Below are positions 32,114 to 61,339 of a stretch of DNA of 64,000 nt, in pieces (the first letter of the stretch is position 1; every line of letters begins with the position of its first letter). The stretch spans positions 11,582,416 through 11,646,415 of the forward strand of contig CM026564.1 in NCBI GenBank assembly GCA_015143295.1, in the 5' to 3' direction. Below the pieces are notes generated by a model, which was given only the letters and a program-made list of their open reading frames with translations, did not search any database and was not told where the DNA came from. This DNA is from Tetracentron sinense. Lineage: Eukaryota > Streptophyta > Magnoliopsida > Trochodendrales > Trochodendraceae. The position numbers were made by a program, and so were the translations under genes.

Positions 32114-35100
32114 TCATTCAAACAATTCTGGGTACTTCGCTTTAACTTCGGCTTCACGCTCCCATGTAGCCTCTTCTCGAGCATGATGTTACCATTGCAC
32201 GAGAACCAATGGAATAGACTTGTTGCGAAGGACTTGATCTCTCCGATCCAAGATATGAACCGGCTTTTCAACCAATGTGAGATCTTCTCAGATTTCCAAC
32301 GGTTCCAACTCTAGGACATGTGAAGGGTCTGCAATGTACTTCTGAAGCATAGACACATGGAAAACATTGTGAACCGCGGCCATCTGAGGTGGAAGAGCTA
32401 CCCGGTAAGCAACTTCACCAACTCTCATGATAATCTCAAACGGGCCAACATATCGAGGACTAAGCTTGCCTCTTTTTCCAAATCTCATAATCCCTTTGCT
32501 AGGTGATAATTTCACAAAGACTTGATCCCCAACCTGGAATTCCAAGTCCCTACGGCGAGTGTCCGCATAGCTCTTTTGACGATCTTGAGCGGCTTTCAAC
32601 CGATCCTGGATGATCTTAACCTTGTTCACCATTTGTTCGATCAACTCAGGACCCAACACCTTTCTTTCTCCTACCTCTTCCTAGTAGAGAGGAGACCTGT
32701 AGCTTCGCCCATACAAGGCATCAGATGGTGCCATTTGGATGCTCGCTTGGTAGCTATTGTTATAGGCGAATTCAACCAAAGGCAAGTGCTCTTCCCAGCT
32801 TCCCTTGAAATCTAGCATACAAGCTCGAAGCATGTCTTCGATGATTTAGTTCACCCTCTCGGTTTTTCCACTAGTTTGTGGATGAAAGGCGGTGCTGAAA
32901 TCAAGTCGGGAACCCATAGCTTCCTGAAAACTTTTCCAGAACCTGGACGTGAATCTTGGATCCCGATCTGACACAATACTAACTGGCACCCCGTGCATCC
33001 GAACGATCTCCTTGATATATAGTGCGGCCAACTGGCTCGAGTTGAAAGTAGTTCAATAAGGCAAGAAATGCGCAGACTTTGTTAAATGATCCATCACAAC
33101 CCATATCGCATCTGAGGTCGTTGCCGTCTTTGGCAAACCAACAATGAAGTCCAGTGAGATGTGCTCCAATTTCCACTCGGGAATAGGGAGAGACTGTAAC
33201 AGACCCGTCGGTCTCAAGTGCTCTGCCTTCACCTATTGGCACACCAAGTACCGTGCCACATACTCCGCAACATCCCTCTTCATTTTCCGCCACCAAAAGT
33301 GACTCTTGAGGTTCCGGTACATCTTTGTACCCCCAGGATGTACTGTGTACTTCAAACGGTGGGCTTCATCCATAATCTCTCTTCGAAGATTCGCATCGGT
33401 CGGAACACACAGCCTTCCCTTAAACGTAATAGCACCTCGGCTAGTGAGAGTGAAGTCCTCACTACCCTTGGCAACTTCTTTGTCCCGGAAAGCCAACAAG
33501 TCAGTATCCATGGCTTGATACTCTTGGATCAAATCTATAATGTACGGCCGGACCGTGACATTTTCCAAGACAGGACTGCGGACATAATCATTCACACTGA
33601 TTTTCAGATTTGCCAAATCTTCCAATAGTTTCCATTCCCGCACTAACATATGGGCCAATAACCCTGGAGGTTTCCTACTCAAAGCGTCCGCCACCACATT
33701 TGCTTTACCCGAGTGGTATTGGATGGTGCATTCATAATCTTTCAAAAATTCCATCCAATACTGTTGTCGTAAATTTAGCTCCTTTTGGGAAAAGAGATAC
33801 TTGAGGCTCTTGTGATCCGTGAACACATAGAACTCTACTCCATAAAGGTAATGACGTAAAATCTTAAGTGCAAACACGACCGCAACAAGTTCCAAGTCGT
33901 GGGTGGGGTAATTCTTTTCATGTTCCTTCAATTGCCTTGATGCATAGGCAATGACCTTCTTATATTGCATGAGAACACACCCAAGTCCGACATGCGAGGC
34001 ATCACTATACACCTCATAACCGCCACGCCTTGATGCCACTGTAAGGACGGGGACTGTGGTCAGTCTCTTCTTTAGTTCTGTGAAACTGATCTCGCACTTA
34101 TCGCTCCATACAAACTTGGCATTCTTATTTGTCAGGTAAGTGAGCGGTGCTGCAAGGCTGGAGAAACCCTCTACGAATCTCCTGTAATAGCCTGCCAACC
34201 CAAGGAAACTGCGTATCTCTGTGACACTTTTGGGCCTTGCCCAACTCATGACTGCCCCTATTTTCTTCGGATCCACCGAGATTCCGCAGATACGACATGG
34301 CTTAGGAATACCACCTCTTCCAACCAAAACACACACTTGCTTAGTTTGGCATACAACTTATGCTCTCTCAACATTTCTAAAGCAAGGTGAAGGTCTCGCA
34401 CGTGATTTTCCCGTGTCTGGGAATATATCAGGATGTCATCAACAAATACTATCACACATCGATCCAGGTATGGTCGGAATACCTGATTCATCAAATCCAT
34501 AAAGGCTGTCGGCGTTTTCGTGAGACCAAAAGGAATCACCAAGAACTCGTAATGCCCATACCGAGTCCTGAAAGTAGTTTTGGGAACATCTTCAGCCTTA
34601 ATTTTTAACTGGTGGTAACCGGGCCGAAGATCAATCTTAGAGACAAAATTTGCTCCCATCAACTGATCGAACAAGTCATCAATCCTAGGCAATGGGTACC
34701 TATTCTTTATAGTGACTTTGTTCAACTGTCGGTAATCGACGCACATTCGCATCGAGCCATCCTTCTTCTTAACAAATAACACTAGGACACCCCACGGTGA
34801 GACACTTGGTCGAATGAAACCAAGGCCTTGTAATTCCTCCAACTGAGTCTTCAACTCCTTAAGTTCAATCGGGGCCATTCTGCACGGAGCCTGGAAGATA
34901 GGAGCTGTGCCTGGTGCAAGCTCGATCACAAACTCAATCTCCCTGTCTGGAAGCAACCCTGGCAACTCCTTTGGAAATACATCCAGGAATTCACTCACGA
35001 ACGGGATAGTCGAAGAGGGGTTCGCTAGGCTCAATGCTGCAAAACGGGCAATATCTCTACTTCTTAACCCCCTAAAATGAAATGGCTTCCCTTCCACCGG

Positions 35101-35423
35101 CCTAAAGAGTACCATCTTTTCAAAGCAAGCCACATGCCCATGATGAGCTTCTAACAAATCCATCCCCAAGATAACGTCAAAGTCTTGAAATCTAAGGACA
35201 GTGTGATCGACTGCCAATTCATGGCCTCCCACTTGGACTGTACTGCCTCTGAAAATGCTATTGGCTACCACTGTTTTGCCGAGAGGGGTCGAAATGAATA
35301 ACTCCGGTTCCAACTAACTAGGTTCCATAGAAAAGCCTTGTGAAAAACTCGGCAAGACAAATGAGTGAGTAGAACCGGTATCAATCAACACTCTAGCCAA
35401 ACATTCATTGACTAATAGGGTTC
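32114..35423 (-). pseudogene. pol of the chromovirus: protease, RT, RNase H, integrase, chromodomain
   Basis: On the minus strand the protease has an intact DTGSTHSF near 35360. RT (34258-35313) has [20 protein letters not shown] and the catalytic FVDDILIYS. After a frameshift near 34300 come [12 protein letters not shown] and VVADALSRK of RNase H and the zinc-binding part of integrase (33233-34336). The integrase core has LDFIVGLP and [13 protein letters not shown], and the usual DGQ-type box is altered to TSGKTERVN (32846-33296). 32288-32659 is the integrase C-terminus. Beyond it, in another frame, a chromodomain with SIPLVLVQW and EEATWEREAEVKAKYPEL ends at 32114, with a TAA at 32189-32191 inside it. 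The chromodomain places the element among the chromoviruses (Tekay/Del-like). Stops and frameshifts make it inactive. Confidence 0.92.
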
Positions 35424-35564
35424 CTGAAATTTCAACTAGCTAAGTCAATCCATGCATCACATCATATATATAGGTAGATAGATATATATAGCTCGCCACA
35501 TATGTACACAAAGAATAAAGCATAACATGACAATCGTGGACAATCGAATACTTTAAAAGCGTGC
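35424..35564 (-). other. In-frame interruption between gag and protease, possible GC-AG intron
   Basis: A 141-bp AT-rich insert with TATATATCTATCTACC lies exactly between the gag zinc knuckle and the protease. On the minus strand it begins AAG|GCACGC and ends TTTCAG. Removing it joins the two reading frames in phase and restores the usual gag-protease transition. Without removal, gag ends at a TAG inside it. The same insert is in the duplicate copy (45246-45386), where the acceptor reads TTTCAAG. Splicing is not proven. A small insertion or an added gag tail is the alternative. Confidence 0.45.
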
Positions 35565-36378
35565 CTTGCACTACATTGTCAGATGCTAGTGCACCACCCT
35601 CTGTCAAGGCAAAAACTCGCCCTTGGTTCGCCTGGCGAGGTGGAGGTGTAGGCCAGATAGGCTGGGATGATGCCTGGTATGATCCTGTTGGGCGTGTTGG
35701 GGGCCTAATCCCCTGAGACTGGCCCGGCAAATGCTGACTAGGGCAATCCCTGATCACGGGGCCCTGGCTGCCGCAGTGAAAACATCCACCCGATGCTCTT
35801 CGGTAATCTCCTGCCGGGTGCCTTCGGCCACATAAAGTGCGGACCTCATGTGTATAGGTCGGAGGGGCCGGAGGAGGAGCGTACCTCACCACCTAAGGTG
35901 CAACTGGCCGTGAGCTGGAAGAGCCTGAGGTCGTGGCACTTGAGGCATGTACGACCATGGAACTTGAGGCGCATAAGATGGCCTCATCTGTGGTGATGGC
36001 CACACATACTGAGGTGGTACTGGCCATGTGTACTGATAAGGGCCGGTTCGAGGCCACCTCTCTAGAGGTGCTGAACTGCTAGGTTGGCCTCTCGCCAAAT
36101 CTCTCTTCTTGGACACGGCCTCCGAATTGGCCTCGATCAACAGGGCCTTGTCCACTACTTCCGGATAAGTAGCGTGCCTGAAAGCTGAGACTTTCTCCAT
36201 TACAACATCCTTGAGCCCTTGCTCAAACCTCCTCGGCTTCATTGCCTCAGTGGCAACCATGTGAGGCGCAAATCTAGAGAGCTCCAAGAACTTAGCCTCA
36301 TAAGTGGCTACAGTCAACGAACCTTGCTCTAGGTTGATGAACTCTCTTTCTTTCTTTTCCCATGCTCCAACTGGAAAG
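35565..36378 (-). pseudogene. gag C-terminal part of the chromovirus
   Basis: The minus strand encodes ATYEAKFLELSRFAPHMV and RFEQGLKDVVMEKVSAFRH of the capsid domain (35886-36317). A Pro/Tyr-rich stretch and the zinc knuckle CFHCGSQGPVIRDC follow (about 35755). The His of CX2CX4HX4C is Pro here, while the duplicate at 45121-46207 retains it (CFHCGRQGHVIRDC). The gene is split at 36378 by the Sirevirus. The N-terminal part resumes at 47710, and removing the insert plus one GAAAG copy restores the frame. Confidence 0.9.
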
Positions 36379-37875
36379 TGTTGGCCAGGAAATGACCCTA
36401 AAGGGGGGTGAATAGGGTCTAAGGCAGATTTTATAAATTAAAATTATTAACTACAAGTTCAAAGAGCAGAATAGAGTATAATATGCAACAAGATAAAACA
36501 ATGGAATATTAAAAGAGAGAGAAGAGATAAGAAGAGTGCAAACTCAAGATTTGTTTTCAAGGTTCAGCAAAACTAGCCTACTCCCCGCCTCAGCTTCCAG
36601 CTAGAGGATTCACCATGATTCCTTAATCGTACAAGCTCCTTCACAGGTGGAGTCCAAACCTTTACAATCTCTCTTTACAGGTCGAGATATCACCTTTCAA
36701 ACTATCCTTTAGGTCGAGCTGAAACCTATTAAGAGAACAATCCTCTCTTGGTATTGCTGAAGCAACAGCTTTAGTGCAAGAATCCTGGATTCTTGACTAA
36801 TCTCAATAAATAGGTTTTGGATTGAAAATCCGAACAGAAGGCTCCTTAAATGAGCTGGATAAGAGTGAAATACAAACTCTAATAAAGTCTCTTAAAACTG
36901 TGAATTGAATGAGCGCAAGAAAAACTTTTTGGGGATTTTCTAAGTATGAGAGTGAGTGAAAATCAATTGCAATGAATGAGGGATCAATAGGAGTTATTGC
37001 AGTGATCAAGAGTTGATATTCATTCATAAATGAACTCCTTTTATAGCATTTGATCCAATAGAGCCGTTGGAGTATCATTAAATGCTTTTAGATCCGTTGC
37101 AAACTAGCCGTTATAGAGATTTTTCTGTTTCAGACATGATTTCGTCGACGAAGTGGAGTTCCCACTTGAGTTTGTCGTCAAATTCAAAAGATAGAGTAGA
37201 ATTCAAAAAAATCCTGTAATGACTTCATCGCCGAATTTAACCCAACCAAAGATTTCGTTGACGAATTCATGAGGCAGAATAGAGTTTTTAAAAATTCTGT
37301 CATGACTTCGTCGTCGAATTCAATCTATTCAGATAATTTGTCGACGAATTCAGAGTAAAAAATCTGAATTCAGTCTAGGATCAGACCGAAGGGATGTGAT
37401 TGATTTGCTAGGTCAATTAGCTATCTTTTTATCATATTTTTATGATTCATTATGGCCTTAAATTGATTTCAAAGGATGTCCTAGGCTCCTATGGTCAATC
37501 TATTGTTATTGAGCTTATTCACTTCACCTTTCTTTTGAGGACTTTTTACATAAGTCCTATACATTCTCAGAATAATACATTTAGAATAATGAGAGATGAT
37601 CTTGGCTTGACTTTGGTCTTGTGATTTTGCCTTTTGTCTTCAATGGTCTTGTCTTGGACTAAGGTCTCTTTCTTGAATCTTCATCTTGTATTGAGTTGAA
37701 CTTTCTCTTGGGTAATTTCCATCCTTTAATTTTTATGATTGGAGTGCTATCAACTTATGTAATCTGAAATGTTCACGCACTCAAACGGGTTTATTAGTAC
37801 CAAATATTTCATTATATTATTATGTTATTATCAAAATTATTAAGGGTACTTATGGTTGTAACCCTGTGGCTAACA
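36379..37875 (-). mobile_element. 3' LTR of the Sirevirus
   Basis: It is 1497 bp, the same length as the copy at 46208-47704, and differs from it by a few per cent by eye. On the minus strand it starts TGTTAGCCACAGGG right after the PPT. It contains the palindrome array 37141-37348 and a TATA box CTATAAAAGG at 37037-37046. GAAAG precedes it at 36374-36378. The short frames in it are not genes. Confidence 0.92.
37141..37348 (-). promoter_or_regulatory. Six-palindrome array in the Sirevirus 3' LTR
   Basis: 12-bp sites related to the palindrome TTCGTCGACGAA start at 37141, 37171, 37224, 37254, 37307 and 37337, so spacing is 30-53-30-53-30 bp. They lie within three diverged 83-bp tandem units in which the palindromes are the best-kept part. 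Deviations from consensus are mostly C-to-T or G-to-A at CpG. The array ends 95 bp upstream (minus sense) of the TATA box at 37037-37046. Confidence 0.9.
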
Positions 37876-38383
37876 ATCTCCCACTTTTTGATGATGACAT
37901 AACAATGTAATGAAATTGGGTTGAGCTCCCCCTCACGACATGTTTTTCATAAAAACTTTGAGGTAAGCTCCCCCTCACGACATGTTTTTCATAAAAACTT
38001 TGAGGTAAGCTCCCCCTACGCATATGCATTTGTAAAAGAATAATCACAGTTATTATTTAGATGCATATTTATGATGAGTCAAAGGATATATCACTCTGGT
38101 TATGTACCAAGAAAAGATCCACAAAGATAAGTTTCAATTTTAAGTTCTCTTCTTAACATATTAGATCCAGACAAGAATAGAATTGCATAAGCGTAAGACA
38201 TATTATGTGTGTACTGCCAAAGATGCAAAAAATTCATCATATTTCAAATAGTTCAAATGCCATTTCATTTATCAATCATCACTCATCAAATTCAAAAAAA
38301 ATTTAAATTTTCATTACATTTCATATTTCTCCCCCTATGTCAACATTAAAAAGAAAATTACAATCCATCTTGTTTTTGTTTCT
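37876..38383 (-). promoter_or_regulatory. PPT and 3' UTR of the Sirevirus, with repeated purine tracts
   Basis: The minus strand reads AAAAAGTGGGAGAT immediately before the LTR (37876-37889), the PPT. Further in, a 42-bp block with a GTGAGGGGGAGCT-type purine tract is directly repeated two and a half times (about 37924-38020). Multiplied polypurine tracts near the 3' LTR are, as I recall, a known Sirevirus trait. No gene is present. Confidence 0.8.
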
Positions 38384-40394
38384 TTATAAGTTCAGCCACT
38401 TTGGTGAAGATATTTTCCGAGGGACCAGCCTTGGGGTCTTGGATGACTTCGTCTTCATCGGAGTCTTCATTTCCGCCGGAGCTACTATAGAAATCTCATT
38501 GGAAGAGGGAGGAATGGAGTTAAGTTTGGAGGATTTTGGAGGCTTGGACTTGACAACTTTAAAAGATTGACTCTTGAAGTTTGAAACTTCTAGCGAAAGT
38601 TGAGACAATTGAGTGGCCATCTGATGAATGATTGGGGTTTGATTTCCAAGAAGGGAGGACATTTGGGATAAGGAAGGTCCTTGACTCCGAACATGCTTTT
38701 CAGTATTCTCTACTTTCCTCTTCATCATGGTCACCAAATCATTCAATTGTAGGCCTTGCTCCAAGGCATCTACAGCCTTTCTCTCTATCAGAGATACAAT
38801 GGAGTCTACTCTGTTCTTAGTGACATCGCCCGAAACTTCAATCTCATCCAGTCTAGGCTCCAAAGATCCAACACTGGTCTGCACTTCCCTTTGAATGGTG
38901 TCCATCCGAGTCTGGAGAGCTAAAAACTGAGCCGAGCTAGCTACTTGGACACTCTGAAAAGATTCTCTGGTTTCTGACTGAAGGGAGACCATTCCAGTTC
39001 TCATTTCTGACATAACGTCCATCATGGAAGCCCTCATTTCCTCTTGAAAAGACTGCGGCTCATTGTCATTTACAACTGAAACTGCTCCAGGCTAGAAGAC
39101 ATGGAGGCAATCTGCCCTGCCATGATGTTCAGCTGCTCATCTGAAGCTGCTGGCCTGCTGGGCACCTCATAGAACTGACCAGGGTCCTCATAGTGAGGAG
39201 ACACTTGTCTATGAGAACTCTCAGGAAACTCTTCAGCATCCACGAAATCGGACCAGTCGGCAGCTCATTTCTGGGGTGCTGCTCACCCTGAAGCTTATCT
39301 GCAGGATCCTCTACTGGTACGGGTTGCTGCTCAGCCTGGGGTTCCTCCTCTGGCACTGATGCTTGCTGCTGCTCAGCCTGAAGATCTGCTGTGGGTGCAG
39401 ATGAGGTAGGAATAGATGAAGAGGGAGCAGAAGTAGGCAATGAGGAAGTAGGGATAAGAGCTGGAGTGCTAGAAGGAAGGGAGGAGGACTGAGAAGCAGA
39501 GGGTTTGGGAGTCCAAACCTTCTGGGAGTCATTCCAAATGTAGCCCATTCTTTGAATGGTTGCTTTGCTATAAATGGAGGAATCATCAGGGGTAACATAA
39601 ACAGTTTGAGATGCTAAAGGAACATTGAAATGTTTAAAGATTTTAGTCAGAGCCTGACCAAAAGGGAGACACCCTGATTTTCTCTTGAATGCATCATCCA
39701 TACAATGGACAATAATGTAGGAGAGATCAATGGGTGTGGTGGTTAGGATGCACCACATAAGGAATACATCAAAGTAGGTGAGATACTCCCTACCACCAGC
39801 CCTGGGAACTAGGTTATAGGTGATTATGTGATGAATCAATCTAGCAGAGAGGGTAAGATCTTTAACCTTAGGTTGAAAAGGAGAGGTGAAATCTTGGTTT
39901 ATGCACATCATTTTTAGTGCTTCAACCACATCAAATCCTTCATGACTGGTCCACTGACCATTCATAAAAGTTTGAAGGGTACACTTAGGGATTTTTAAAA
40001 TTGAGGGCAATTGATTCAAATGAAAAGAAATGTTTTTACCTAAGACAAATGAGGTAATAAGAGATTCGGACTGTTTGAAATGGAAGTGAGTGTAAAAGAG
40101 TTTGACCAACTCAGGAAACATGGGTTCGTTAGATTCAAGAAATTTATCCCATTTTAGGGTAGAAAAGAGGGTTTTTATGGGTTCGAGCCCATAGGCATCA
40201 AGACTAATGAAATTAACGACTTTACCGTACAGAGGGGAACGATGAAGGAATTTTTCTTTGAATAATTTCTTGAACTTTTCTTCCTTGAACTTTACTTGGA
40301 CTAGAGTTGAACTTGAGGCCGGTTCTTTTCCTTTTTCGGTTCGGGATTTCTTCTTTGGTGGCTCCACCAATGCATTCTTCATTCTAGGAGGCAT
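38384..40394 (-). pseudogene. env-like ORF of the Sirevirus
   Basis: On the minus strand an ATG at 40394 opens a 421-codon frame (to 39129). It starts with a basic KKKSRTEKGKE segment. A globular part with HRSPLYGKVVNFISLDAYGL follows, which resembles what Pfam calls a putative plant transposon protein domain. A Pro/Ser/Gln-rich linker comes next. A frameshift near 39265 moves the reading to another frame and a second near 39060 brings in 38384-39037, a long coiled coil (QFLALQTRMDTIQREVQTS) and a basic tail. Position after pol and composition match the env-like genes of SIRE1-type elements. I see no clear signal peptide. Its role is unknown. Confidence 0.85.
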
Positions 40395-40512
40395 TTTCTG
40401 AGAGATTAGAGAGATTTGCTAGATCTTGGAACGAAGAAGGGTGCACGAGCAATGGAATAGGGACTTTGGAGGGAAAGATTAGGTTTGAAAAAGTGTGGAT
40501 TTTGGGGGGTTA

Positions 40513-40740
40513 CTATTTATACACACGACTCAATTCCTCACCGAAATGGGTTTCGTCCCTTAATTCGTCGTCGAAATTAAGTTGGGAGCCCTAAAGTGTT
40601 TAATTTCGAATTGACTTCGTCGACGAAATGGATGACTCATCCAGGTTCGTCGTCGAAATGGGTACAGAAAATATTCTGTTTTCTATATTTCCCAAAGATT
40701 CGTCGCCGAAATCATATTCTAGATTGAATTCGTCACCGAA
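40513..40740 (-). promoter_or_regulatory. Candidate internal promoter upstream of the env-like ORF
   Basis: Six 12-bp sites start at 40534, 40564, 40616, 40646, 40699 and 40729, spaced 30-52-30-53-30 bp. The best is the perfect palindrome TTCGTCGACGAA at 40616. This matches the site and the spacing of the LTR array. Thirteen bases further on in the minus sense lies TATAAATAG (40513-40521), and the env-like ATG is at 40394, so a leader of about 90 nt would be expected. Pol ends at 40891, so the array is in the pol-env gap. Site spacing is seen directly; promoter activity is inference. Confidence 0.7.
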
Positions 40741-40890
40741 TTCAGTCCTGAATATGAAGAAATGATTTCTCTTTAGTTTTCTACCTGTTTTCCTTTAAGT
40801 CAAAGATTCATCAAGACATATAAATTTGTCAAAACGTATTCAAATCAATCTATGAAACAATCAAGCAATTTATAGATCAGATCAAAGATT

Positions 40891-43800
40891 TCAATTTTTG
40901 ATTACTTTTGATCTTGATTCAGTTAGATCATTTAGACTAGTCATTCCCAATTCTCTTCTCAAAGCACTAAACCTATCAGATTGTAGAGGTTTAGTAAAGA
41001 TATCAGCAAGCTGATTAATAGTATCAATAAATTCCAAGATAACATTTCCATTTTGCACATGATCTCTAATAAAGTGATATCTTATTTCTATGTATTTAGT
41101 TCTTGAGTGTTAAATGAGATTCTTAGTCATGCAAATTGCACTTGTTTTATCACACTTAATAGGAATTTTAGTATAGATAAGTTTAAAATCTTCTAGCTGT
41201 TGTTTCATGTAGAGAGTTTGAGCACAACAAAGTCCAGCTGTCATATACTCAGCCTCAGCTGTGGATAAGGCTACTGAATTTTGTTTCTTGCTAAACCATG
41301 AAACAAGAGAATGTCCTAAAAAGTGACAAATTCCACTAGTGCTTTTTCTATCTACTTTGCATCCAGCAAAGTCTGCATCTGAATAGCTTATTAGATCTAA
41401 GTTTGTGTCTTTTGGATACCATAAGCCTAAATTAATTGTTCCAAGCAAGTATCTAAAGATTCTTTTTATAGCAGTTAAGTGAGATTCTTTTGGACAGTAT
41501 TGGAATCTTGCACAAATACAGACACTGAACATAATGTCAGGTCTACTTGCAGTGAGATACAAAAGACTTCCAATCATGCCTCTATAGAGTTTTTCATCAA
41601 TATTTTTTCCTTTTTCATCCTTATCAAGTTTGGTTGATGGACTCATAGGAGTATCCATTATTTTAGTGTTTTCCATTCCAAACTTTTTAAATAACTCTTT
41701 AGTATATTTAGCTTGATTAACTAAAGTTCCTTGTTTGGTTTGTTTGATTTGAAGTCCTAAGAAAAATGTTAATTCACCCATCATGCTCATTTCAAACTCT
41801 TTTTGCATTGTTTTAGCAAACATTCTATAGAGAGATTCATTTGTTGATCCAAATATAATGTCATCTACATAGATTTGAATTATTAGCATATCATCATTTT
41901 TGGTCATTATGAATAAAGTTGTGTCAATTTTACCTCTTGTGAATCCGTTTTCAATTAGGAAGCTACTTAGCCTATCATACCAAGCTCTTGGAGCTTGCTT
42001 TAATCCATATAAGGCTTTAGTTAGCTTAAATACATGATTAGGGAATTTATGATTTTCAAAGCAAAGTGGTTGATTTACATACACTTCTTCATTAATGTAT
42101 CCATTTAGAAATGCGCTTTTTACATCCATTTGATATAATTTAAACTCTTTATGACTAGCAAATGCAAGTAACATTCTTATAACTTCTAGTCTAGCAACCG
42201 GGGCAAATGTTTCATCATAATCTATCCCCTCTTCTTGGTTGTAACCTTGAACTACTAATCTTGCTTTGTTTTTAACTATATTTTCATTTTCACCCTTTTA
42301 TTTCTAAATACCCATTTTGTTCCAATAATAGATTTATCATTTGGTTTAGGTACTAGATCCTAAACTTGATTTCTATCAAATTGATTTAACTCTTCTTGCA
42401 TAGCAATGCCCCACGATTCATCTTCAATAGCTTCCAAGGCATTTTTAGGTTCAATTTGACTTAGGAAAGCAAGGTTTATTAGATTTCTTTTTGTTCTAAC
42501 CCCTTGTTCCATATTACCAAGTATTAGATCCTTAGGGTGATCTTTTATTAATTTCCAAGCTTTAGGAAGTTGATAGAATTTTTCATTTTCAATTTCTTCT
42601 TCATTATCTATTTCAATGGAGTTGTTGCTTGATTTTTCTTTTTCTTGATCATTTTTATTTTCTTTGTTGATTTCTAAATTAAATATTGTTTTTGGAAGAT
42701 TATCAATTTCATCATCCATATCAGTATTGATTTTGTTAAAAGGATTTGATTCATCAAAAACTACGTGAATTGATTCTTCAACAATTAATGATTTCTTACT
42801 AAACACTCTATAAGCTTTGCTATTAGTAGAGTATCCTAAGAAAATTCATTCCACAGGTTTAGCATCAAATTTCTTAAGATGTTGTTTATCATTAAGTATG
42901 AAGTATTTACATCCAAACACCTTAAAATAACTTATATTAGGAATTCTTCCATTCTATAGTTCACAGGGAGTTTTATTTAGTTTGTTTCTTATAACAACTC
43001 TATTAATTATATAGCATGAAGTGTTAATGGCTTCAGCCCAAAAATAATTTGGTAATTTATTTTCATTAAGCATTGTTCTAGCTATTTCTTGAAGAGATCT
43101 ATTCTTTCTTTCTACTACACCATTTTGTTGTGGAGTTCTAGGTGCTGAAAAATTATGATTAAAACCATTTTCATCACAAATTGATTCAAGTTCTTTATTT
43201 TTAAATTCTCCTCCTCTATCACTTCTTATGTTGTTAATAGAATAACCTTTTTTATTTTGAACTCTTTTACAAAACTTTTTAAATAGAGAAGATGCTTCAT
43301 TTTTATGAGAAAGAAATAGTACCCATGAGTATCTTGAAAAATCATCCACTATAACAAAAGCATAAGTTTTTCCAGCTAGGCTAGCTACTTCATTTAGACC
43401 AAAAAGATCCATATGCAAAAATTCTTAGGGCCTAGTGGTAGAAATCATTTTCTTGGTTTGAAATGAAGATTTTATTTGTTTTCCAAGTTGACAAGCATCA
43501 CCGATTTTATCTTTGATAAATTTAGTTTTAGGTAATCCTTTAACTAATTCATTTTTAGAGAGTTTAGACAAAAGATCCATACTAGCATGTCCTAGTCTCC
43601 TATGCCATAGCCAACTTGCTTCATCTATAGCAGAAAAACATATCAAGTTTTGAGATTTAAGTTCATCAAAATCTAAGGTATAAACATTTTCATTTCTATG
43701 TGCTACAAACAAAGTATTCAGATTATCTTTATCTTTAATCATGCAGATATTTGACTTAAATGAAACATTCAATCCCTTATCACAAAGTTGACTAATACTT

Positions 43801-43994
43801 ATGAGATTATGCTTAAGACCATCAACGAGTAGTACATTCTCTATAAAAATAGATTTATTCTTACTAATGTTACCTATACCGATGATCTTCCCTTTGGCAT
43901 TGTCTCCAAATGTCACATGGCCGCCATCCTTTGGAGTGATTGATGCGAATAGTTCCTTGTTCCCGGTCATATGCCTTGAGCATCCACTGTCCAA
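40891..43994 (-). pseudogene. pol of the Sirevirus: protease, integrase, RT, RNase H
   Basis: On the minus strand the protease motif MDSGCSRHMTG opens 43425-43994. It is followed by the GAG-pre-integrase zinc region (LWHRRLGHASM) where the first Cys of the last pair is Gly. The integrase core at 42954-43418 has DFSRYSWVLFL, IRSDRGGEF and TPQQNGVVERKNR. A low-complexity integrase tail follows at 42360-42806. RT starts near 42330 ([13 protein letters not shown]) and has [25 protein letters not shown] and YVDDIIFGS. RNase H follows with [18 protein letters not shown]. After a TAA at 41110 the frame continues (RTKYIEIRYHFIRDH, INQLADIFTKPL) and stops at 40891. There are few breaks, so this is a fairly young copy. 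Confidence 0.92.
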
Positions 43995-44046
43995 GAACCA
44001 CGTTGTCTTGGAAGTTCTTGATTTGAAACATACCTACACATCCAAT

Positions 44047-45120
44047 TCAAGTAACTTCAAGATACTTTCCCCCCGATACCCAAACAGTTTTGGATGGTAC
44101 CCAAAGTGATCTGGGTTGTGGTTTGGGAGGATTAGTTCCCTTGGGAACCCATATCAATCTTGGTCCTTTATGGTTAGTTTTTGAAATAGAAGATGTTCCT
44201 TTTGGAACCCAAACTTTTCTAATTATTTTACCATTGTAAAACGAGGTGGATGGTGGAGTTTGGTGACTACTTAATTTTGTAAAGAAGTTTTGATAGTCTT
44301 TTTGTTTTGTAAAAGTATTATAGCCAAGTCCAGCCTTGTTAAAAACACATCTTTGCTGTCCTAAAAGTCTTTCTAGGTTCTTTTGACCATTTGTGAATGT
44401 GAGGACAGTATTGGCCAAATCATTGACTTTAACTTTTAACTCATCACATTCACATGGTGAGTTATGAGGAGCATTTTCAATATCATTTAATTTCTTACTT
44501 AATTCCTCATTCTTAATGGCTAACACACTCTTTTCTTTTTGTAGATTTTCACATGATTGTGAGAGAGTGTGGATTTCCCTTTTAAAGGATTTATTTAATT
44601 TAACTATTCTACCAAATTCAATATAAAGTTCATCAAATGCTTCTCTTATTTCATCATATGAGAGAGAATCATTTGGGGAAGAAGTTACCTCATCCTCATT
44701 TGCCATGAGGCACAAATTTGCCACTTCTTCATCACTTGAATCTCCTGATTTGATTCCCTCTGAGTCATCCTAAGTTGCCATCATAGCCTTCTTCTTGTAC
44801 TTTTGGATTTTCTTGAGTTGAAGTTCTTCTTATGCATGAGGAACCTTTTGAACCTTCTTGCCATTAAAGCTATATCTTCATCATCACTGCTGGTTTCCTC
44901 ATCACTAATTTCAACTTGAGTAGACTTGAGAGCCAGCCCTTTCTTGGTTTTAGGTTCATCAGGCATTTGATCCTTCATTATGACTTCATGAGTCATAAGA
45001 GATCCCAGCAGCTCATCCATAGGAAGTTTGGTGAGGTCCTTAGCTTCTTGGCTTGCTGTTACTTTTGAAGTCCATTCCTTGGGCAATGATCATAAAATCT
45101 TTCTCACATTTTCTGCATTA
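44047..45120 (-). pseudogene. gag (C-terminal part) of the Sirevirus
   Basis: On the minus strand the sequence starts within gag at NAENVRKIL followed by a stop and LPKEWTSKVTA (45086-45118). MDELLGSLMTHEVIMK and an acidic stretch with ISDEETSSDDED come next. The expected zinc knuckle is absent: KSKST runs almost straight into YKKKAMMAT in another frame, indicating a deletion near 44800. The second part (44047-44724) is a coiled coil leading to the protease. The N-terminal half of gag, the leader and the PBS are lost at the junction at 45121. Confidence 0.85.
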
Positions 45121-46207
45121 GAATACACTCCGGTTCCAACTGACTAGGTTCCATAGAAAATCCATGCGAAAAAAACTCGGCAAGACAAATGAGTGAGTAG
45201 AACCGATATCAATCAACACTCTAGCCAAACATTCATTGACTAATAGGGTTCTTGAAATTTTAATTAGCTAAGTCAATCCATGCATCACATCATATATATA
45301 GGTAGATAGATATATATAGCTCGCCACATATGTACACAAAGAATAAAGCATAACCTGACAATCGTGGACAATCGAATACTTTAAAAGCGTGCCTTGCACT
45401 ACATCGTCAGATGCAAGTGCATCACCCTCTGTTAAGGTAAAAACTCACCCTTGGTTCGTCTGGCGAGACGGAGTTGTAGGCCAGATAGGCTGGGATGATG
45501 CCTGGTGTGATCCTGCTGGGCGTGCTGGGGGCCTAATCCCCTGAGACTAGCCCGGCAAATGTTTACTAGGGCAATCCCTGATCACATGGCCCTGGCGGCC
45601 GCAGTGAAAACATCCACTCGATGCTCTTCGGCAATCTCCTGCCGGGTGCCTTTAGCTGCATAAACTGCGGACCTCGTGTGTATAGGTCGGAGGGGCCGGA
45701 TGAGGAGCGTACCTCACCACCTAAGGTGCTACTGGTCGTGGAGCTGGAAGAGCCTGAGGTCGTGGCACCTGAGGCATGTACGACCGTGGAACTTGAGGTG
45801 CATAAGATGGCCTCATCTGTGGTGATGGCCACACATACTGAGGTGGTACTGGCCATGTGTACTGATAAGGGCCGGTCCGAGCCCGCCTCTCTAGAGGTGC
45901 TGAACTGCTAGGTTGGCCTCTCGCCAAATCTCTCTTCTTGGACACGGCCTCCGAATTGGCCTCGATCAACATGGCCTTATCCACTATATCCGGATAAGTA
46001 GTGTGCCTGAAAGCTGAGACTCTCTCCATAACAACATCCTTGAGCCCTTGCCCAAACCTCCTCGCCTTCATTGCCTCAGTGGCAACCATGTGAGGCGCAA
46101 ATCTAGAGAGCTCCAAGAACTTAGCCTCATAAGCGGCCACAGTCATCGAACCTTGCTCTAGGTTGATGAACTTTCTTTCTTTCTTTTCCCGTGGTCCAAC
46201 TGGAAAG
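45121..46207 (-). pseudogene. Duplicate of the chromovirus gag-protease segment inside the Sirevirus
   Basis: This 1.09-kb block is near-identical to 35303-36378, from CTCCGGTTCCAACT through the protease start, the 141-bp interruption, the zinc knuckle (here intact, CFHCGRQGHVIRDC) and the capsid piece, up to the GAAAG flank at 46203-46207. It is followed by an LTR in the same way as the original. It is therefore chromoviral DNA that lies between the Sirevirus gag and an LTR, where the Sirevirus leader should be. A tandem duplication or unequal exchange is the simplest source. Confidence 0.92.
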
Positions 46208-47704
46208 TGTTGGCCAGGAAATGACCCTAAAAGGGGGGGTGAATAGGGTCTAAGGCAGATTTTAAAAATTAAAATTATGAACTACAAGTTCAAAGAGCGG
46301 AATAGAGTATAATATGCAAAAAGATAAAACAATGGAATATTAAAAGAGAGAGAAGAGATTAGAAGAGTGCAAACTCAAGATTTGTTTTCAGGGTTCAGCA
46401 AACAGCCTACTCCTCGCCTCAGCTTCCAGTTAGAGGATTCACCACGGTTCCTTAATCGTACAGGCTCCTTCACAGGTGGAGTCCAAACCTTTACAATCTC
46501 TCTTTACAGGTCGAGATATCACCTTTCAAGCTATCCTTTAGGCCAAGCTGAAACCTATTAAGAGAACAATCCTCTCTTGGTATTGCTGAAGCAACAGCTT
46601 TAGCGCAAGAATCCTGGATTCTTGACTAATCTCAATAAATAGGTTTTGGATTGAAAATCTGAATAGAAGGCTCCTTAAATGAGCTGGATAAGAGTGAAAT
46701 AAAAACTCTAATAAAGTCTCTTAAAACTGTGAATTGAATGAGCTCAAGAGAAACTTTTTGGGGATTTTCTAAGTATGAGAGTAATTGAAAATCAATAGCA
46801 ATGAATGAGGGATCAATATGAGTTATTGCAGTGATCAAGAGTTGATATTCATTCATAAATGAACTCCTTTTATAGCATTTTATCCAATAGAGCCATTGGG
46901 GCATCATTAAATGCTTTTAGATCCGTTGCAAACTAGCCGTTACAGAGGATTTTCTATTTCAGACATGATTTCGTCGACGAAGTGGAGTTCCCACTTGAGT
47001 TCGTCGCCGAATTCAAAAGATAGAAAAGAATTCAAAAAAATAGTGTAATGACTTTGTCGCCGAATTTAACCCAACCAAAGAGTTCGTTGACGAATTCATG
47101 AGACAGGATAGAGTTTTTAAAAATTTTGTCATGACTTCGTCGCCGAATTCAATCTATCCAGATAATTCGTCGACGAATTCAGAGTAAAAAATCTGAATTC
47201 AGTCTAGGATCAGACCAAAGGGATGTGATTGATTTCCTAGGTCAATTAGTTATCTTTTTATCATATTTTTATGATTCATTAGGGCCTTAAATTGATTTCA
47301 AAGGATGTCCTTGGCTCCTATGGTCAATCTATTGTTATTGAGCTTATTCACTTCACCTTTCTTTTGAGGACTTTTTACATAAGTCCTATACATTCTCAGA
47401 ATAATACATTTAGAATAATGAGAGATGATCTTGGCTTGACTTTGGTCTTGTGATTTTGCCTTTTGTCTTCAATAGTCTTGTCTTGGACTAAGGTCTCTTT
47501 CTTGAATCTTCATCTTGTATTGAGTTGAACTTTCTCTTGGGTAATTTCCATCCTTTAATTTTCATGATTGGAGTGCTATCAACTTATGTAATCTGAAATG
47601 TTCACGCATTAAAACGGGTTTATTAGTACCAAATATTTCATTATATTATTATGTTATTATCAAAATTATTAGGGGTACTTATGGTTGTAACCCTGAGGCT
47701 AACA
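46208..47704 (-). mobile_element. Sirevirus LTR, right copy (probably a solo LTR)
   Basis: It is 1497 bp and flanked by GAAAG on both sides (46203-46207 and 47705-47709). It has chromoviral gag on both sides too, the signature of a solo LTR in the same target site. The palindrome array is at 46970-47177 with the 30-53-30-53-30 spacing and better-kept sites than the left copy. A TATA box CTATAAAAGG is at 46866-46875. Confidence 0.88.
46970..47177 (-). promoter_or_regulatory. Six-palindrome array in the right Sirevirus LTR
   Basis: Sites start at 46970, 47000, 47053, 47083, 47136 and 47166. Two are the perfect TTCGTCGACGAA (46970 and 47166). Three have TCGCCGAA as the right half. The lower end lies 94 bp from the TATA box at 46866-46875, as in the other LTR. 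Confidence 0.9.
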
Positions 47705-47709
47705 GAAAG

Positions 47710-48167
47710 TACTTTTTGTAAAAAGTATCCTTGAACTCCTCCCAAGTCCAAGGTTGACCCTGCATAGTCAACTCTCTAGTCCTCAAGGCAGACAACCATC
47801 AATGGTGTGCCTCACCCTCTAGCATGAAGACTTACCATGCCACTTTCTCTTCCTCTGTAGGAGAGAGAACCGCAAATATCTTCTCTAATTGGAGGATCCA
47901 AGCCTCCGCAGCAAGAGGGTCCACACTCCCATGGAATGATGGAGGCCTCAATCTCCTGAATGCCTCAACTCCAGCTGTACGATGTACTGGAGCTGTGGGC
48001 GGTGGAGTAGGTGCCACCGACGATGGTATAGCCTGCCTAGCCGCCAGTATGGCAAGTGTCTCAGCAATAGAGCCTAAGACCTGAGAGAGGTCCGGCTACT
48101 CATCCTCATCTCATGAAGAAGAGGAAGCTCTAGTGTGTAGCCCACGACCCCGTGTGCCCCGCCTCAT
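47710..48167 (-). pseudogene. gag N-terminal part of the chromovirus
   Basis: The ATG at 48167 opens MRRGTRGRGLHTRASSSS, an Arg-rich start. After two stops the frame continues with RLRPPSFHGSVDPLAAEAWI and FAVLSPTEEEKVAW, the typical start of the Ty3 capsid domain (47832-48017). The tail reads WTWEEFKDTFYKKYF up to the Sirevirus insertion point at 47709. It continues in frame at 36378. Confidence 0.88.
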
Positions 48168-51398: not shown

Positions 51399-53570
51399 TG
51401 TTAGACATGTATGCCCACAAAGCCATTCCGGAATTGTATTTATCTATTTTTAAATCAATAAATGCATATTTTACATTCACACATTGTCTTCTACATTGGG
51501 TAATATATTGAAAGTATCTCATTGGATGAGACTACTTTGTCCCTTAGGTAACTTTGTACGAAAACCATCTAATTAGTTGATAACTGATTGCTAAGGAGAT
51601 ATGGTTTTTCCGGTTCCTTGTAGACCTAAAATTGTTCTAAGTTAATCAGGATGCATCTGGACAATGTATTCCTAATAACTTACACATTGTTAGTTCCATA
51701 TGATGGAGTGATGAATCTCAATCACTGAGAGAAGGGTCTCTTGACTAAGATGTAGATATAAGTAAGAAGTACTTATATTGCAACTGGATCACTCAGTGGA
51801 TACCCTTAGACATATACTGTCTTTATATTTAGGGTAATCCATTTGACAGATTGTCCTTCACCTGAGAGGTCGACATCTTCTCTAGTATTTGCCTATGTAG
51901 CTTTGATGTAGTCAATCGTCAATGTCCAACACACTGGGTTATGTACGTTGTACTAGAAGAAGTATGTGTACGCTCAACAAGGATTCTACTACTCTTACAG
52001 AGAAAATAATATTGAATTGATACTTGTCAAAACCGGACTTGAAAAACCCAGCACTGGTATTTATCGATGAAATGATTTTATTGAGGAATTCATTTTCTGT
52101 ATAAAAGAAATGAAATTATTATTATTATTTCTTTTAAAGAATTTTTAAAATGTTTTGCAAGTCCAAGTTTGACTAAAAATATTAAAGAGAATGGGTTCTC
52201 AATATAAGCCAGGGATTAAAGATAGTATTAGATATTGTCCCGTAAGCTTATAACAATATTGGAAGTGGAGGGACTGATCTGTAAACTAATCTTGAGATAG
52301 AAATACCTGCAAGTAATTCTCTATTTTCTGGGGGTTAATCACATTGTGTTAATGGACATTAATTGTGATTGGTGGAAGTCCAGAGATATAGATAACATTC
52401 TATTATCTTAATGGAGTGTAGAAAAGGTGTTTCCTAGTAACAATGTTTTAACCAAAAGGTTGAGTACTTGGTCCCACAACCGGAAATAGGAGATCCCTTT
52501 AGATCCCACACACAAGGACTTTCTTAAAGTATTTAATTTAATGATTTATTAAATGAATTTATTTCTCTAAGAAATCACTCTATGGTATAGTGAAGCTCTA
52601 AAAGGTGGAATCACATTAGATGTGAAAGACCAAATGGGTAGGACCCATTGGGGAATATTTTAAAAGAATATTAAAAGTGACCAAAGGGTTAAGAACTCAT
52701 GATGTGGCGTGTTGGGGTGGGACCCACCTAGGGTGGGACGCCCACTCCATGGAGATTACTTTATTGTTAATCATAAATTAGTTTCTAATTAATTAAACAC
52801 CTTATAAGATAAGGTTAGTTAGTTAGTTAGTTACTAATTAAAGATTCCTTGTTGGACAAGGATTCTTCTAGTTTCTTACTAATCAAGGAATCCTAATTGG
52901 ATTAGGATAAAGATATGATTAGTTAGTTACTAAAAGATAAGATTAGTTTCTACTTTTGATTATTCCTAATTAATTATGGAGAAACCAAATAGGAAACTAA
53001 TTTGAGGAATTCTAAATTGATTAGAAAGTGGAAACTTGGGTTGCAACCAACCCAAGGTAGCCAATTTAAAGAGAGGACGTCCAAGGCTTTGGGACATTAT
53101 TATTTTTCCAGAAATTTCCAGATTTGGAAATCTCTCTTCTCTCCTCAATCTCACGCCCCTCTCTCCCTATCCTTGTGGTGTACGGTCTAGCCCCTTTGCC
53201 CCCTTTTCTTCTTGTGTTCTTAGTTTTTGAAGATTAAGAAGAGGATCAAGAAAGGTTCTTTATAATAAAAAATTGGATCTTTTATTCAAGATCCTAGAGC
53301 TGGATATTTGGAAGGGCCATTAGCTTCCATTAAAGAAAGCTTTAAAAAAAAAAGAAAGTCCGTGTGGATTGCGAAGGAGACTTGGCACTTGTGATGTTTT
53401 GTCGGTATTGATTTTATCATGGATTTGACTTAACAATTTTAAAGTCGCAAAGGTATTGTGATTTTTACTCTCATTGAATAAAATCAATTAAAATCTTAGT
53501 CAGATCTTGGGATTCGATGTATGCCCCCCCAAGAACTGTTTTTCTAAAATTAAAAAGAGGCATACTTTCA
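51399..53570 (+). mobile_element. 5' LTR of the plus-strand copia element
   Basis: It is 2172 bp, from TGTTAGACATG to CATACTTTCA. TTAGTTAG runs occur at 52820-52840 and a purine-rich TTTAAAGAGAGG at 53066-53076. It is complete relative to the 3' copy. No gene is present; small frames near 53000-53230 are in the U3/R zone. Confidence 0.9.
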
Positions 53571-53571
53571 G

Positions 53572-53584
53572 TGGTATCAGAGCT
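53572..53584 (+). promoter_or_regulatory. Primer binding site, initiator-Met tRNA
   Basis: TGGTATCAGAGCT lies one base after the LTR end. It is the standard PBS of copia elements. Confidence 0.95.
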
Positions 53585-55326
53585 TAGGCTATGCTTCTCT
53601 TTGATTTTATTGCTTAATCAAGATTTATAAATATAAATCATACTTCCACTTTAAATTTCGGGTGACCTAGTGATGAATCTTTTAGATTTTTGATCACTTC
53701 TTGATTATTAGATAATCATTAGTAGGGCTAAGGGGTTCCCCTATTATTATTGAGGGAATAAAAATCAAGCCCCTAGAAATTAGTGTTAGACTAATTTCAA
53801 GTTTGGATGATTCCAAAGCCTCTCGAAATTTAGTAGGGACAAATATTTAATGATATCTAAATCTTGATCATAGCCCTTAAGGATTTAGAGATCCTTATTA
53901 GAAGTAAATTAAATTGTTTAATTTATTCTGAGAGCCCCGGGCTAGCATAAATAATATATAATATATTTATCATGATAAATAAATTATTTTATGTGTTGGA
54001 TGGGTTCCACAAATCATACCTCCTTCTCTTTCTCCTCCCCTCCCCTTTTTCTTATTTTAAGAATAGGGTTGCTGATTTATGGTGGACTAAATCAACCGAA
54101 GGAGATGCCCTGAGAACCATTGCAAGATAGCAAATTGTAGTAGGGCTTTATTTAATTCTCCTGTTGTAATTAAATAAGATTGTATGATTTTTGTGAACCC
54201 ATTGTGAGATTATAATATGAGTATAATTATTATATTATCATTCATGTGATGATTAATAGTATTTCCTTTAGCCCGGAAGTTGTGATAATTGTGATTATCG
54301 CTTTTATGATAATTTAGGATAATTGGATTTTTCTTCTTTTAATGGATTATGTTTAATTATAAATTGTTTATATTTAAACACAATACATTACCAGTACTCT
54401 TTTGGACGTGGAGTTTGTGACCCATGCAGAGATTTTTATGTAAAATATTTGCATACGATATTATTGGATAATCGTATCTGAAAAGACAATAATCGTAGAT
54501 GGATCACTAAACTGACATCCAAATACCCTAAGAATATAAGGATGAGTAGGTTTTGATTACAAGATGAAAATCCTAATGATCAAAACCCCCTGTGAGGGCT
54601 AGTGGGAGTTTATCACTCCTTGATAATCCTATTATCGAAAATTTTCATAATTCATATGATGAATACTTGGATAATGATATGATCATGCCTATTTAATATT
54701 GTTCCCTTCAAGAAAAATATTAAGTGATAATAAATGGGATTAATAATCCTAAGGCCTTCCATTATCAATAAAGACTAGGAATTAATTAGCCTGAGTCTTG
54801 TCTCTCTGATAGGAGTTCAACATAATTCAGTCTAAATTAAACTCTTAGTGCATTATTTCTATTGTAGATAGGATTGTATATGGCCTGATAGGGACTGTCA
54901 ACTAGCATGGGGGCACATCTCTACTTGATCATATGACAACCGAGAATAATGGGTTTCACTTAAACAAGGAAACATGGCGGCTGACACAGTGATAGTCATG
55001 TTGTCCTTGTAGGTTGCAAGAAAATTGGGAATCACTAATTTACATAAGGAGTTATGCATTAGATGCTTAGTGATGGATGGTTACTATCCACCTTGTAGTG
55101 CATGTGTGGTACTATCCTAGCATGGAAGATTACATGTGTGTTATGAGGATCCCAATACTCATCTAGAATAAAAGGTTTATTCCCTAATTTCATATACTGA
55201 AGGGAATGATGAAATTTGAAGAAAGATGAGAGGATCATCAGATTTTAAAATCCCAAAAATCTGATGAATATATGTGTGAAAATAAATGTAATAATTTATT
55301 CTTATTTTATTATGTAGATATAAGCC
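53585..55326 (+). other. 1.7-kb leader of the plus-strand copia element
   Basis: The leader is AT-rich, with no coding signal above noise. It is unusually long for a copia element, in which gag usually starts within a few hundred bases. I see no second element inside it. Confidence 0.6.
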
Positions 55327-58300
55327 ATGAATTCTCTTTCCAAGATTCTAGAAGAGAATCGGTTGACTGGTCCAAATTTTATGGATTGGAAAAGAAACCT
55401 TGATATTGTGCTTATCTCTCAGAAGATAGCTTATGTCCTCACATTCGACTATCCGGAATTTGATGAGGCAATTCAAACCCCTGAGGCAGTTGAGAAAGCC
55501 TCAAAGTAGCATGAGTCAAATAGTTTGGCCAAATGCTACATGCTTGCATCCATGTCAAATGTCTTACAGCAACAGCACGAGGGTTTTGCTACAGCTAAGG
55601 ACATATTGACTAATCTCAGGGAGATGTTTGGGGAATAGAACAGAACTGCTAGGCAGTTGGCAATGAAAGGACTGATGAGGACCAAGATGTCTGATGGTAG
55701 CCTAGTCCGGGAACATGTTGTCAAGATGATGGGGTTCATTAATGAACTCTTGATCCTTGGAGCGGATCTTGATCAATAGAGTCAAACGGATGCGATCCTA
55801 AACTCTCTCCCGGAATCCTTTTATGCTTTTGTGTTGAATTTCAGCATGAACAAATTGGAGACATCTCTGCCAGAGCTCCTAAACATGTTGCAAGGAGCTG
55901 AAGACCTTATGAAGCGTACTAAGGTCTATGCAAATGTGGCAGAAGGAGTTGGACCTTCAAGGCCCAAGCCTAAGGGCAAAGGCCAGAAAAAGAAGAAGTC
56001 CAATTTTTCCAGGTTCCTCAAAGGCAAGAAGGGTAAGAATAAAAATAAGAAAACTTTTGAGAAGAAAGACAAGAAAAAGAATCAGAATGTCTGCTTCTAT
56101 TGTAAGAAACCAGGTCACTGGAAGAGGAATTGCAAAGTTTACTTAGCATCCCTCAAGGGCAAGCCTTTGGAAGGTATGCCAGATTCTTTCATCATTGAAT
56201 CCAATTTTATTATTGGTTCCTCAAACTCTTGGTGTGTAGATAGTGGATCTACCTCACATATTTGTAACATGTTACAGGGGTTTCAGGAGAGTAGAAAGCT
56301 CAGTGATTGGGAAGTCAAGATAAGGATGGAAACGGAAGCAAGTGTTGCTGCGATCGCCATCGGAACTTATATTTTAGAATTTTCTTTTAATAGGATCTTA
56401 GTTTTAAAAGACTGTTTATATGTGCCAGACATGCGCAGAAATTTGATTTATGTTTCTAGTTTAATCTTTAATGGTTATTCAGTACATTTTGATACTGATG
56501 TAGTTATCAAATATAATAATAGTTTTATTGTTTCCGGCACATTGTCTAATGGTCTTTATTATCTTGATCTAGTAAACAATTCTGTAAATAACATTGAGGA
56601 TAAAGAATCTACCAGTGTGACACCTCAGAAAAGAGGTAGAGATTTTGTGAATCCAACATACTTATGGCATCTCAGATTAAGCCATAACAATTTGGATAGA
56701 CTCAATAGATTGGTCAAGGATGGTCCTTTAAACCATTTACATGTTGAACCTTATCCAACTTGTGAATCTTGTTTGTAAGGTAAAATGACCAAAAGGCCAT
56801 TTACAAGCAAACCTAAGAGAGCCACAAGTATATTAGAATTAATTCACACTGATGTATGTGGAGCCATAAATCATTTAGCCAGAGGTGGCTTTGTCTACTT
56901 CATTACATTCATAGATGATTTTTCTAGATTTGGTTTCATATATCTAATGAAACACAAGTCAGAATCTTTTGAAAAGTTCAAAGAATTCTAGAATGAAGTA
57001 GAAAAGCAATCAGGTAAATGTATTAAAACTCTCAGATCCGATAGAGGAGGAGAGTACCTCTCGAATGAGTTCATGGATTATCTTAGAGATAATAGAATTT
57101 TATCCCAATGGACTCCCCCAGGAACACCCCAGCTGAATGGTGTTTCAGAAAGAAGAAATCGAACCCTATTGGATATGGTTCATTCAATGATGAATAATAC
57201 TGATTTGCCAGTATCTTTTTGGAGATATGCATTAGAGACTGCAATCTATCTATTGGATAAGGTACCTTCTAAGTCTGTTTCCAAAACTCCATTTGAGCTA
57301 TGGAATGGGCGAAAGCCTAGTCTGAAGCATGTCAGGATATGGGGTTGTCCAGTTCATGTGCGAAAGCAGAACTTTGAAAAGTTGGAAAGTAGGACTGAGA
57401 AGTGCCTATTTATAGGATACCCAAAAGAAACTCTCAGATATTATTTCTATAATCCTAGCGAACAAAAGGTGTTTGTGAGCAGGAATGTCATTTTTCTAGA
57501 AGAGGATATGATCCTCAATAGAAAAGATGGACTTAGAATTGATCTTGAGGAGCAAAGTTAGGATAAAGTGGCCATGGTTAATCCCGTCTTAACTGAACCT
57601 TTAAATACACAACAACCTAGGAGAAGTACAAGGATCAGTCGACCTCCAGATAGATTGTTTTATGATCATGAGATATATTCTATGGAATCGGATTCCTTAG
57701 ACGATGATCCTTACACTTATCAAGAAGCAATATGTGATATTGATTCTGATAATTGGAAAAACGCCATGGAATCTGAAATGGACTCCATGTACTCGAATGG
57801 TGTCTGGACCCTGGTTGAAAAGCCTGAGGAAATTAGACCTATTGGGTGCAAATGGATCTACAAGAGGAAACGTGGATCCAATGAAAAGGTAGAGACCTTT
57901 AAAGCAAGGCTTGTGGTGAAAGGGTATAGTCAAAGAGCTGGTATCGATTATGAGGAAACCTTTTCACCAGTAACAATGCTAAAGTCCATCAGAATTCTGT
58001 TATCAATTGCAGCCTTTTATGATTATAAGATATGGTAGATGGATGTCAAAACCGTATTCTTGAATGGAAACATTTAAGAGGATATTTATATGGACCAGCC
58101 CGAAGGTTTTGAACTTCATGGCCAAAATAATAAAGTGCAAATTGATAAAATCTATTTATGGCCTTAAGCAAGCTTCTCGGAGTTGGAATATCCGTTTTGA
58201 TGAATCAATGAAATCGTTTGGTTTTCAGTAAAACATGGATGAGGCATGTGTGTACAAAAAGGTCAATGGGAGTGCAATAACTTTCCTAGTTCTTTATGTA

Positions 58301-59281: not shown

Positions 59282-59296
59282 GTGCAAGTGGGAGAT

Positions 59297-60981: not shown

Positions 60982-61052
60982 AAACTGTGCACTCCTTCCC
61001 AAATACAAAGTGTTCGCAGAAGTTCAACTTCGCTGTTTACTCACCATAAATC

Positions 61053-61313: not shown

Positions 61314-61339
61314 CATAGAGCAAACCATGTTTGCATCAT

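Follow-up and report, generated by a model that had tools for sequence, protein, structure and literature searches.

The closest described systems are the env-bearing Sireviruses, in whose LTRs palindromic RM boxes were reported by Bousios et al. in 2010 (PMC2829016). According to that paper, 9 of 21 Sireviruses have additional RM clusters upstream of ENV, 77 of the 79 linker copies being positioned before that gene, and linker RMs occur in none of the four RM-bearing elements that lack ENV. The nine elements with linker RMs differ in RM sequence, and RM boxes are missing from six ENV-bearing Sireviruses, indicating that env does not in general depend on the cluster. CpG islands were described at the LTR and at the linker, with a TATA box on average 37 bp past the LTR island. 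The linker RMs were taken as support for an internal promoter, none of which was conclusively identified, and the internal-promoter hypothesis is credited there to Peterson-Burch and Voytas (2002) (PMC2829016). The 2012 MASiVEdb paper likewise names an internal promoter beside stop codon suppression among the mechanisms of ENV expression (PMC3414828). A spliced ENV-like mRNA is cited as another known route, with splice acceptors predicted for BAGY2 and Athila (PMC2829016, section 20). The original prediction for the present locus, made from sequence, knew of no report of an env-side duplicate of the LTR array and regarded an internal promoter as a new route. In both respects it was preceded, since the duplicates are already described for the 9 of 21 Sireviruses and the idea of an internal promoter is in print (2002 as cited in PMC2829016; PMC3414828).

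The window, which is the whole stretch of 64,000 nucleotides of Tetracentron sinense that was analyzed, contains a Sirevirus lying on the minus strand. Its features are as follows.

36379..37875, minus strand: 3' LTR, 1497 bp, TGTTAGCC...GGCCAACA, with the target duplication CTTTC (36378-36374) after its end
37037..37046, minus strand: LTR TATA box CTATAAAAGG
37141..37348, minus strand: palindrome cluster of the 3' LTR, sites at 37141/37171/37224/37254/37307/37337
37878..38336, minus strand: polypurine tracts as defined in PMC2829016, AGGGGGAG starting at 38336, 38017, 37975 and 37933, and the terminal AGTGGGAG at 37885-37878
38384..39037, minus strand: second ORF, 217 aa, coiled-coil-like, with weak Pfam matches, none above cut-off
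39129..40394, minus strand: first part of the env-like ORF, coding for 421 aa with a match to PF20167 of Pfam (Transposase_32, putative plant transposon protein) at E 2.4e-19 and 70.3 bits against a cut-off of 45
40395..40512, minus strand: stretch of 118 nt between TATA and ATG with a putative 5' leader within it, 66% pyrimidine, without ATG
40514..40521, minus strand: TATAAATA, a candidate TATA box for the env-like ORF
40534..40740, minus strand: internal palindrome (RM-box) cluster of six 12-bp sites, by site matching and CpG count
40891..42174, minus strand: pol, reverse transcriptase/RNase H end, PF07727, E 4.9e-48
46208..47704, minus strand: right-hand LTR copy, 1497 bp, flanked by CTTTC at 47709-47705 and at 46207-46203 like a solo LTR, within a duplicated block
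46970..47177, minus strand: palindrome cluster of the right-hand LTR copy, sites at 46970/47000/47053/47083/47136/47166

The assignment to the Sireviruses made in the original prediction is borne out by the order of the pol domains, the polypurine tracts, an inverted repeat and a polyC signal. The order is of the copia type, with GAG-pre-integrase and rve lying ahead of RVT_2 on the minus strand. Four exact copies of AGGGGGAG on that strand are joined by the terminal variant AGTGGGAG, which is one base off the octamer and is followed by AT and the TG of the LTR, forming the attachment site. The terminal polypurine tract is bordered by an inverted repeat of 30 bp (the longest tried) with 87% identity, which was equaled in none of 500 shuffles and whose right arm lies 39 bp inside the LTR. 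The C run CACCCCCC, a putative polyC integrase signal, ends 24 bp before the LTR end, and the published average distance is 21 bp (PMC2829016). Repeated palindromes of the RM-box kind are present in the LTR upstream of the TATA box, and further copies at 40534-40740 precede the ORF at 40394; the CGG-CCG core of RM boxes is absent from their consensus TTCGTCGACGAA. The primer-binding site (PBS) sequence TATCAGAGC occurs on the minus strand of the window only at 48520-48512, which is outside the element, and the region that should follow the 5' LTR has been replaced in this copy.

The insertion host reads as Ty3/gypsy gag, the downstream part of which matches PF03732 with an E value of 6e-4, below the Pfam cut-off. 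Two ORFs at 33233-35313 appear by eye to be Ty3/gypsy protease-RT-RNase H pieces, continuing the gypsy element that hosts the Sirevirus. A block of 2.58 kb at 35296-37875, comprising the LTR and Ty3/gypsy gag-protease-like sequence, recurs at 45121-47704 with 95% identity, and the two copies differ at 60 positions in the LTR part (4.0%) and at 60 in the gypsy part (5.5%). Transitions make up 40 of the 60 changes between the two LTRs, and 10 of these transitions fall at CpG. After the right-hand LTR come CTTTC and Ty3/gypsy gag sequence up to 45121, with no PBS there, and at 45121 the Sirevirus sequence resumes as gag without its start. This arrangement suggests that the right-hand LTR is a solo-LTR-like copy joined by rearrangement rather than a 5' LTR in place, so that LTR divergence provides no safe insertion date, and the duplicated block looks like the outcome of illegitimate recombination between the solo-LTR and full-length states of one locus. 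The element copy is dead, with an in-frame stop in pol, an env-like region split into two ORFs, and no PBS. Elsewhere in the window, short repeats are common to approximately 52.1-53.9 kb and 60.0-60.6 kb within 52000-61600, and between them a plus-strand ORF (55831-56778) is copia gag-protease-like by eye; this region is possibly a second LTR element, and it has no palindrome cluster of the TTCGTCGACGAA type.

The six sites of the internal array start at 40534, 40564, 40616, 40646, 40699 and 40729 (spacing 30-52-30-53-30) and have 3, 1, 0, 1, 1 and 2 mismatches to the consensus TTCGTCGACGAA, respectively. The arrays of both LTR copies have the spacing 30-53-30-53-30. The original prediction had given these starts and spacings for the env-side array and had located six sites in each of two LTRs, at 37141-37348 and 46970-47177; all of these coordinates check, and both LTR copies do carry arrays, but the right-hand copy is not at the normal place of a 5' LTR, being followed by the target duplication and Ty3/gypsy gag. 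Across the window, 34 matches to TTCGTCGACGAA with up to three mismatches were found compared with 13.3 expected, a number reached in 0 of 100 shuffles, and every site with two mismatches or fewer lies within the three array regions. A comb of six teeth at the LTR spacing, in which every tooth except the first was allowed 1 bp of play, gave mismatch totals of 8 at 37141 and 5 at 46970, and a best total of 31 on 300 mononucleotide shuffles of 40394-40940. The comb total of 8 at 40534, against a minimum of 30 in a background of 61,787 positions from which the three array regions are excluded, indicates that the internal array is not a product of chance. The array is also marked by its CpG content, with 18 CpG in 40520-40750. 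Across 36379-45120, scanned in 175 windows of 230 bp, the median was 1 CpG, with maxima of 17 at the internal array and 13 at the 3' LTR array, and the 11 windows with at least 9 CpG all overlap one of these two arrays. On the plus strand, position 5 is T in 18 of 18 sites (12 if the LTR copies are counted once) and position 8 is A, C or T, indicating that the palindromes are not fully symmetric and that all 18 sites share one polarity.

As in the published elements, the palindromes are common to the LTR and the pol-ENV linker, are CpG-rich and have a TATA box downstream in the LTR (PMC2829016). The CGG-CCG core is found in 12 of the 13 published RMs, whereas TTCGTCGACGAA lacks it. The Vitis Sirevirus RM CGGTCGACCG has the same central TCGA palindrome as the sites described here, with other flanking bases and two linker copies before ENV, and the RM of Tnd-1, ACAATCGATTGT, shares both the central TCGA and the lack of CGG-CCG, but has other flanks, no linker copies and no ENV (PMC2829016). 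The number of sites is equal in LTR and linker here; among the nine published elements this holds only for Barbara (13 and 13), the two numbers differing in the other eight (PMC2829016, Table 3). In the present element the LTR and linker clusters are in the same register and a TATA box stands right after the linker cluster, two features that the abstract and Results of PMC2829016 do not mention. The locus is a well-preserved new example of the arrangement described in 2010, not a new kind of thing. This copy adds three points to it: a register common to LTR and linker, a candidate core promoter, and an RM in which the usual CGG-CCG core is missing. The RM is thus slightly deviant and the core promoter a good candidate, with a putative promoter function.

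The relationship between the internal array and the LTR arrays, which the original prediction had drawn, is supported by register and by the likeness of the spacers in the same orientation. All five internal spacings are within 1 bp of the LTR spacings, and the in-register sites are on average 82% (left copy) and 86% (right copy) identical to those of the LTRs, compared with 56-78% for the spacers. When the five spacers were pooled and compared with the LTR spacers in direct orientation, only 3 of 1000 (left) and 1 of 1000 (right) shuffles were as good; in inverted orientation, 378 and 426 of 1000 were as good. In a control in which the LTR copies were inverted against each other, 17 of 1000 shuffles were as good, indicating that a mild signal can come from the symmetry of the array itself. 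Each of the three 18-bp spacers has its best score, a weak one (z 1.9 to 2.3), with the corresponding spacer of the right LTR copy. One of the two longer spacers prefers the other unit (z 2.5 compared with 0.9 for the counterpart) and the other prefers its counterpart (1.2 compared with -1.5), and the outer flanks of the arrays show marginal likeness at most, equaled in 22 to 128 of 1000 shuffles. As the spacers show no inverted likeness, an inverted copy of the LTR array is ruled out, and because their weak likeness is confined to the direct orientation, the internal cluster is most simply explained as a block copy of the one in the LTR. The data fit best with copying either of the LTR array by itself or of a longer segment that has since diverged. 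A duplicated LTR core promoter is not supported. The original prediction had placed a TATA box after the array in all three locations and proposed an LTR-derived promoter; the boxes are where it placed them, but the gap from the last array site to the TATA box is 12 bp internally and 95 bp in both LTR copies, and a blastn comparison of the stretch containing the internal TATA box and leader with the LTRs yielded no match, so the core promoter does not look like a duplicate.

On balance, the RM cluster upstream of ENV, most simply a block copy of the cluster in the element's own LTR, most likely forms the upstream regulatory part of an internal promoter in live relatives; in the present copy the array is a relic. 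The LTR palindrome cluster would have been copied as a block between pol and the env-like gene, and a host factor would bind the evenly phased palindromes, whose distances of 30, 53 and 83 bp correspond to about 3, 5 and 8 turns of the helix. The TATA box 12 bp downstream of the array would then place the start at about 40485-40495, and the env-like ORF would follow a short leader that is rich in pyrimidines and has no upstream ATG, from which it would presumably be translated. Matches to TATAWAWR number 18 in all on the minus strand of the window, or 0.028 expected per 100 bp. The original prediction had placed the env-like ATG at 40394 approximately 120 bp past the TATA box, and with 118 nt between them and no ATG in this stretch the pair makes a plausible TATA box and leader. 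Four ATGs are present between the pol stop and the TATA box, and an ATG-free stretch of 118 nt is by our estimate not rare by chance, at roughly one in six.

With respect to the transmembrane and coiled-coil segments of Sirevirus env-like genes, the protein encoded by the first env-like ORF has a best 19-residue hydropathy of 1.61, and a heptad signal is seen in the second ORF only, both by simple scores; the coiled-coil Pfam matches in the env-like region are weak and below cut-off. The second ORF (38384..39037) is probably a terminal piece of the env-like gene that has been broken off. No relative of the env-like ORF with a solved structure was found at E values up to 1, and searches for the env-like protein gave 5 pattern stretches in viral_contigs and 29 stretches in genome_contigs, none of which was confirmed; the pol piece gave no stretch in viral_contigs. 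The paired-site pattern was found at three loci in viral_contigs (L001-L003), in acidic-repeat ORFs that by eye lie among phage-structural-like genes, and these were rejected as chance matches. There was no Rfam match at the gathering score in 36000-48000, and a tRNA search of the window with bacterial settings found none. A scan for bacterial-type promoters, which is not relevant to a plant, gave none of interest.

The pol frame contains an in-frame TAA at 41112-41110 and ends in a TGA at 40893-40891, 497 nt from the env-like ATG. Since pol and env are in different frames and stops close all three frames between them, readthrough of the pol stop is ruled out as a source of env in this copy. 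SIRE1 of soybean is also a Sirevirus with an env-like gene after pol, but there pol and ENV are parted by a stop codon alone and stop suppression is used (PMC2829016). A spliced env RNA starting in the LTR would leave the array unneeded for expression. The stretch between TATA and ATG ends in the acceptor-like sequence TCTCTCTAATCTCTCAG, whose AG ends at 40398 and is followed by AAA, and an AG of such high rank, preceded by a pyrimidine tract and lying 3 nt before the ATG, makes a spliced env RNA possible. This AG is at the 99.0th percentile of the AG sites on the minus strand of the window, and a second acceptor-like AG, shortly ahead of the array at 40748, ranks at the 99.2 percentile, both by a home-made pyrimidine-tract score. 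Plant 5' leaders are often pyrimidine-rich, which counts against reading TCTCTCTAATCTCTCAG as an acceptor. Splicing is a known route for ENV-like mRNA, with the acceptors predicted for BAGY2 and Athila (PMC2829016), but it leaves the array unexplained, and we consider it unlikely to be the route by which env is made.

The array could instead regulate in another manner, as a CpG-rich target of methylation or small RNAs or in recombination, with no promoter being made. In favor of this, the arrays are the CpG peaks of the element, and the middle internal site pair with its spacer (40610-40662) is a long interrupted palindrome whose predicted DNA hairpin (-15.4 kcal/mol) is far better than those of shuffles (z -5.3). 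A 2016 paper is also reported to have given the LTR palindromes of maize Sireviruses a part in the epigenetic response of the host. The three site pairs of the 3' LTR fold more weakly than 40610-40662 (z -1.5, -1.8 and -2.6), however, and |z| is below 2 in three of the six array pairs folded. Regulation of this kind would also leave unexplained why linker copies are limited to ENV-bearing elements, with 77 of 79 before ENV (PMC2829016), and is distinctly unlikely as the main role of the array.

It is improbable that the cluster was a functionless relic from the beginning, brought in by the capture of the env-like gene, or of a piece of LTR, at a place between pol and the 3' LTR. The state of this copy, with its pol stop, split env-like region and missing PBS, is in keeping with a relic, and because the copy is dead nothing in it shows selection; the six ENV-bearing Sireviruses without RM boxes (PMC2829016) point the same way. 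Against it, the in-register sites are more similar to the LTR sites than the spacers are to theirs, and the association recurs in nine published elements with different RM sequences (PMC2829016). Independent origin of the LTR and internal clusters, by recruitment of the same host-factor site, is scarcely credible. In its favor, the demands of the factor would give both clusters one site and one helical phase, and the number of sites differs between LTR and linker in eight of nine published elements (PMC2829016); against it, all five spacings agree to 1 bp and the spacers show weak likeness in a single orientation.

The internal promoter of which the RM cluster would form the upstream part opens no new field, the pattern having been published in 2010 and the hypothesis in 2002 as cited there (PMC2829016). 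Apart from the stop suppression of SIRE1, the expression of Sirevirus env-like genes was left open in the 2010 paper (PMC2829016). For this question the present copy offers a compact candidate promoter that can be tested against a matched control from the LTR. The register common to the LTR and env-side arrays predicts that one factor acts on both. It is a serious possibility, if with somewhat less than an even chance, that the locus represents a complete internal promoter, made of a block-copied LTR enhancer array and a core promoter of separate origin, through which one host factor would co-regulate the genomic and env RNAs. If true, this would be the internal promoter that the 2010 study sought without pinning it down.
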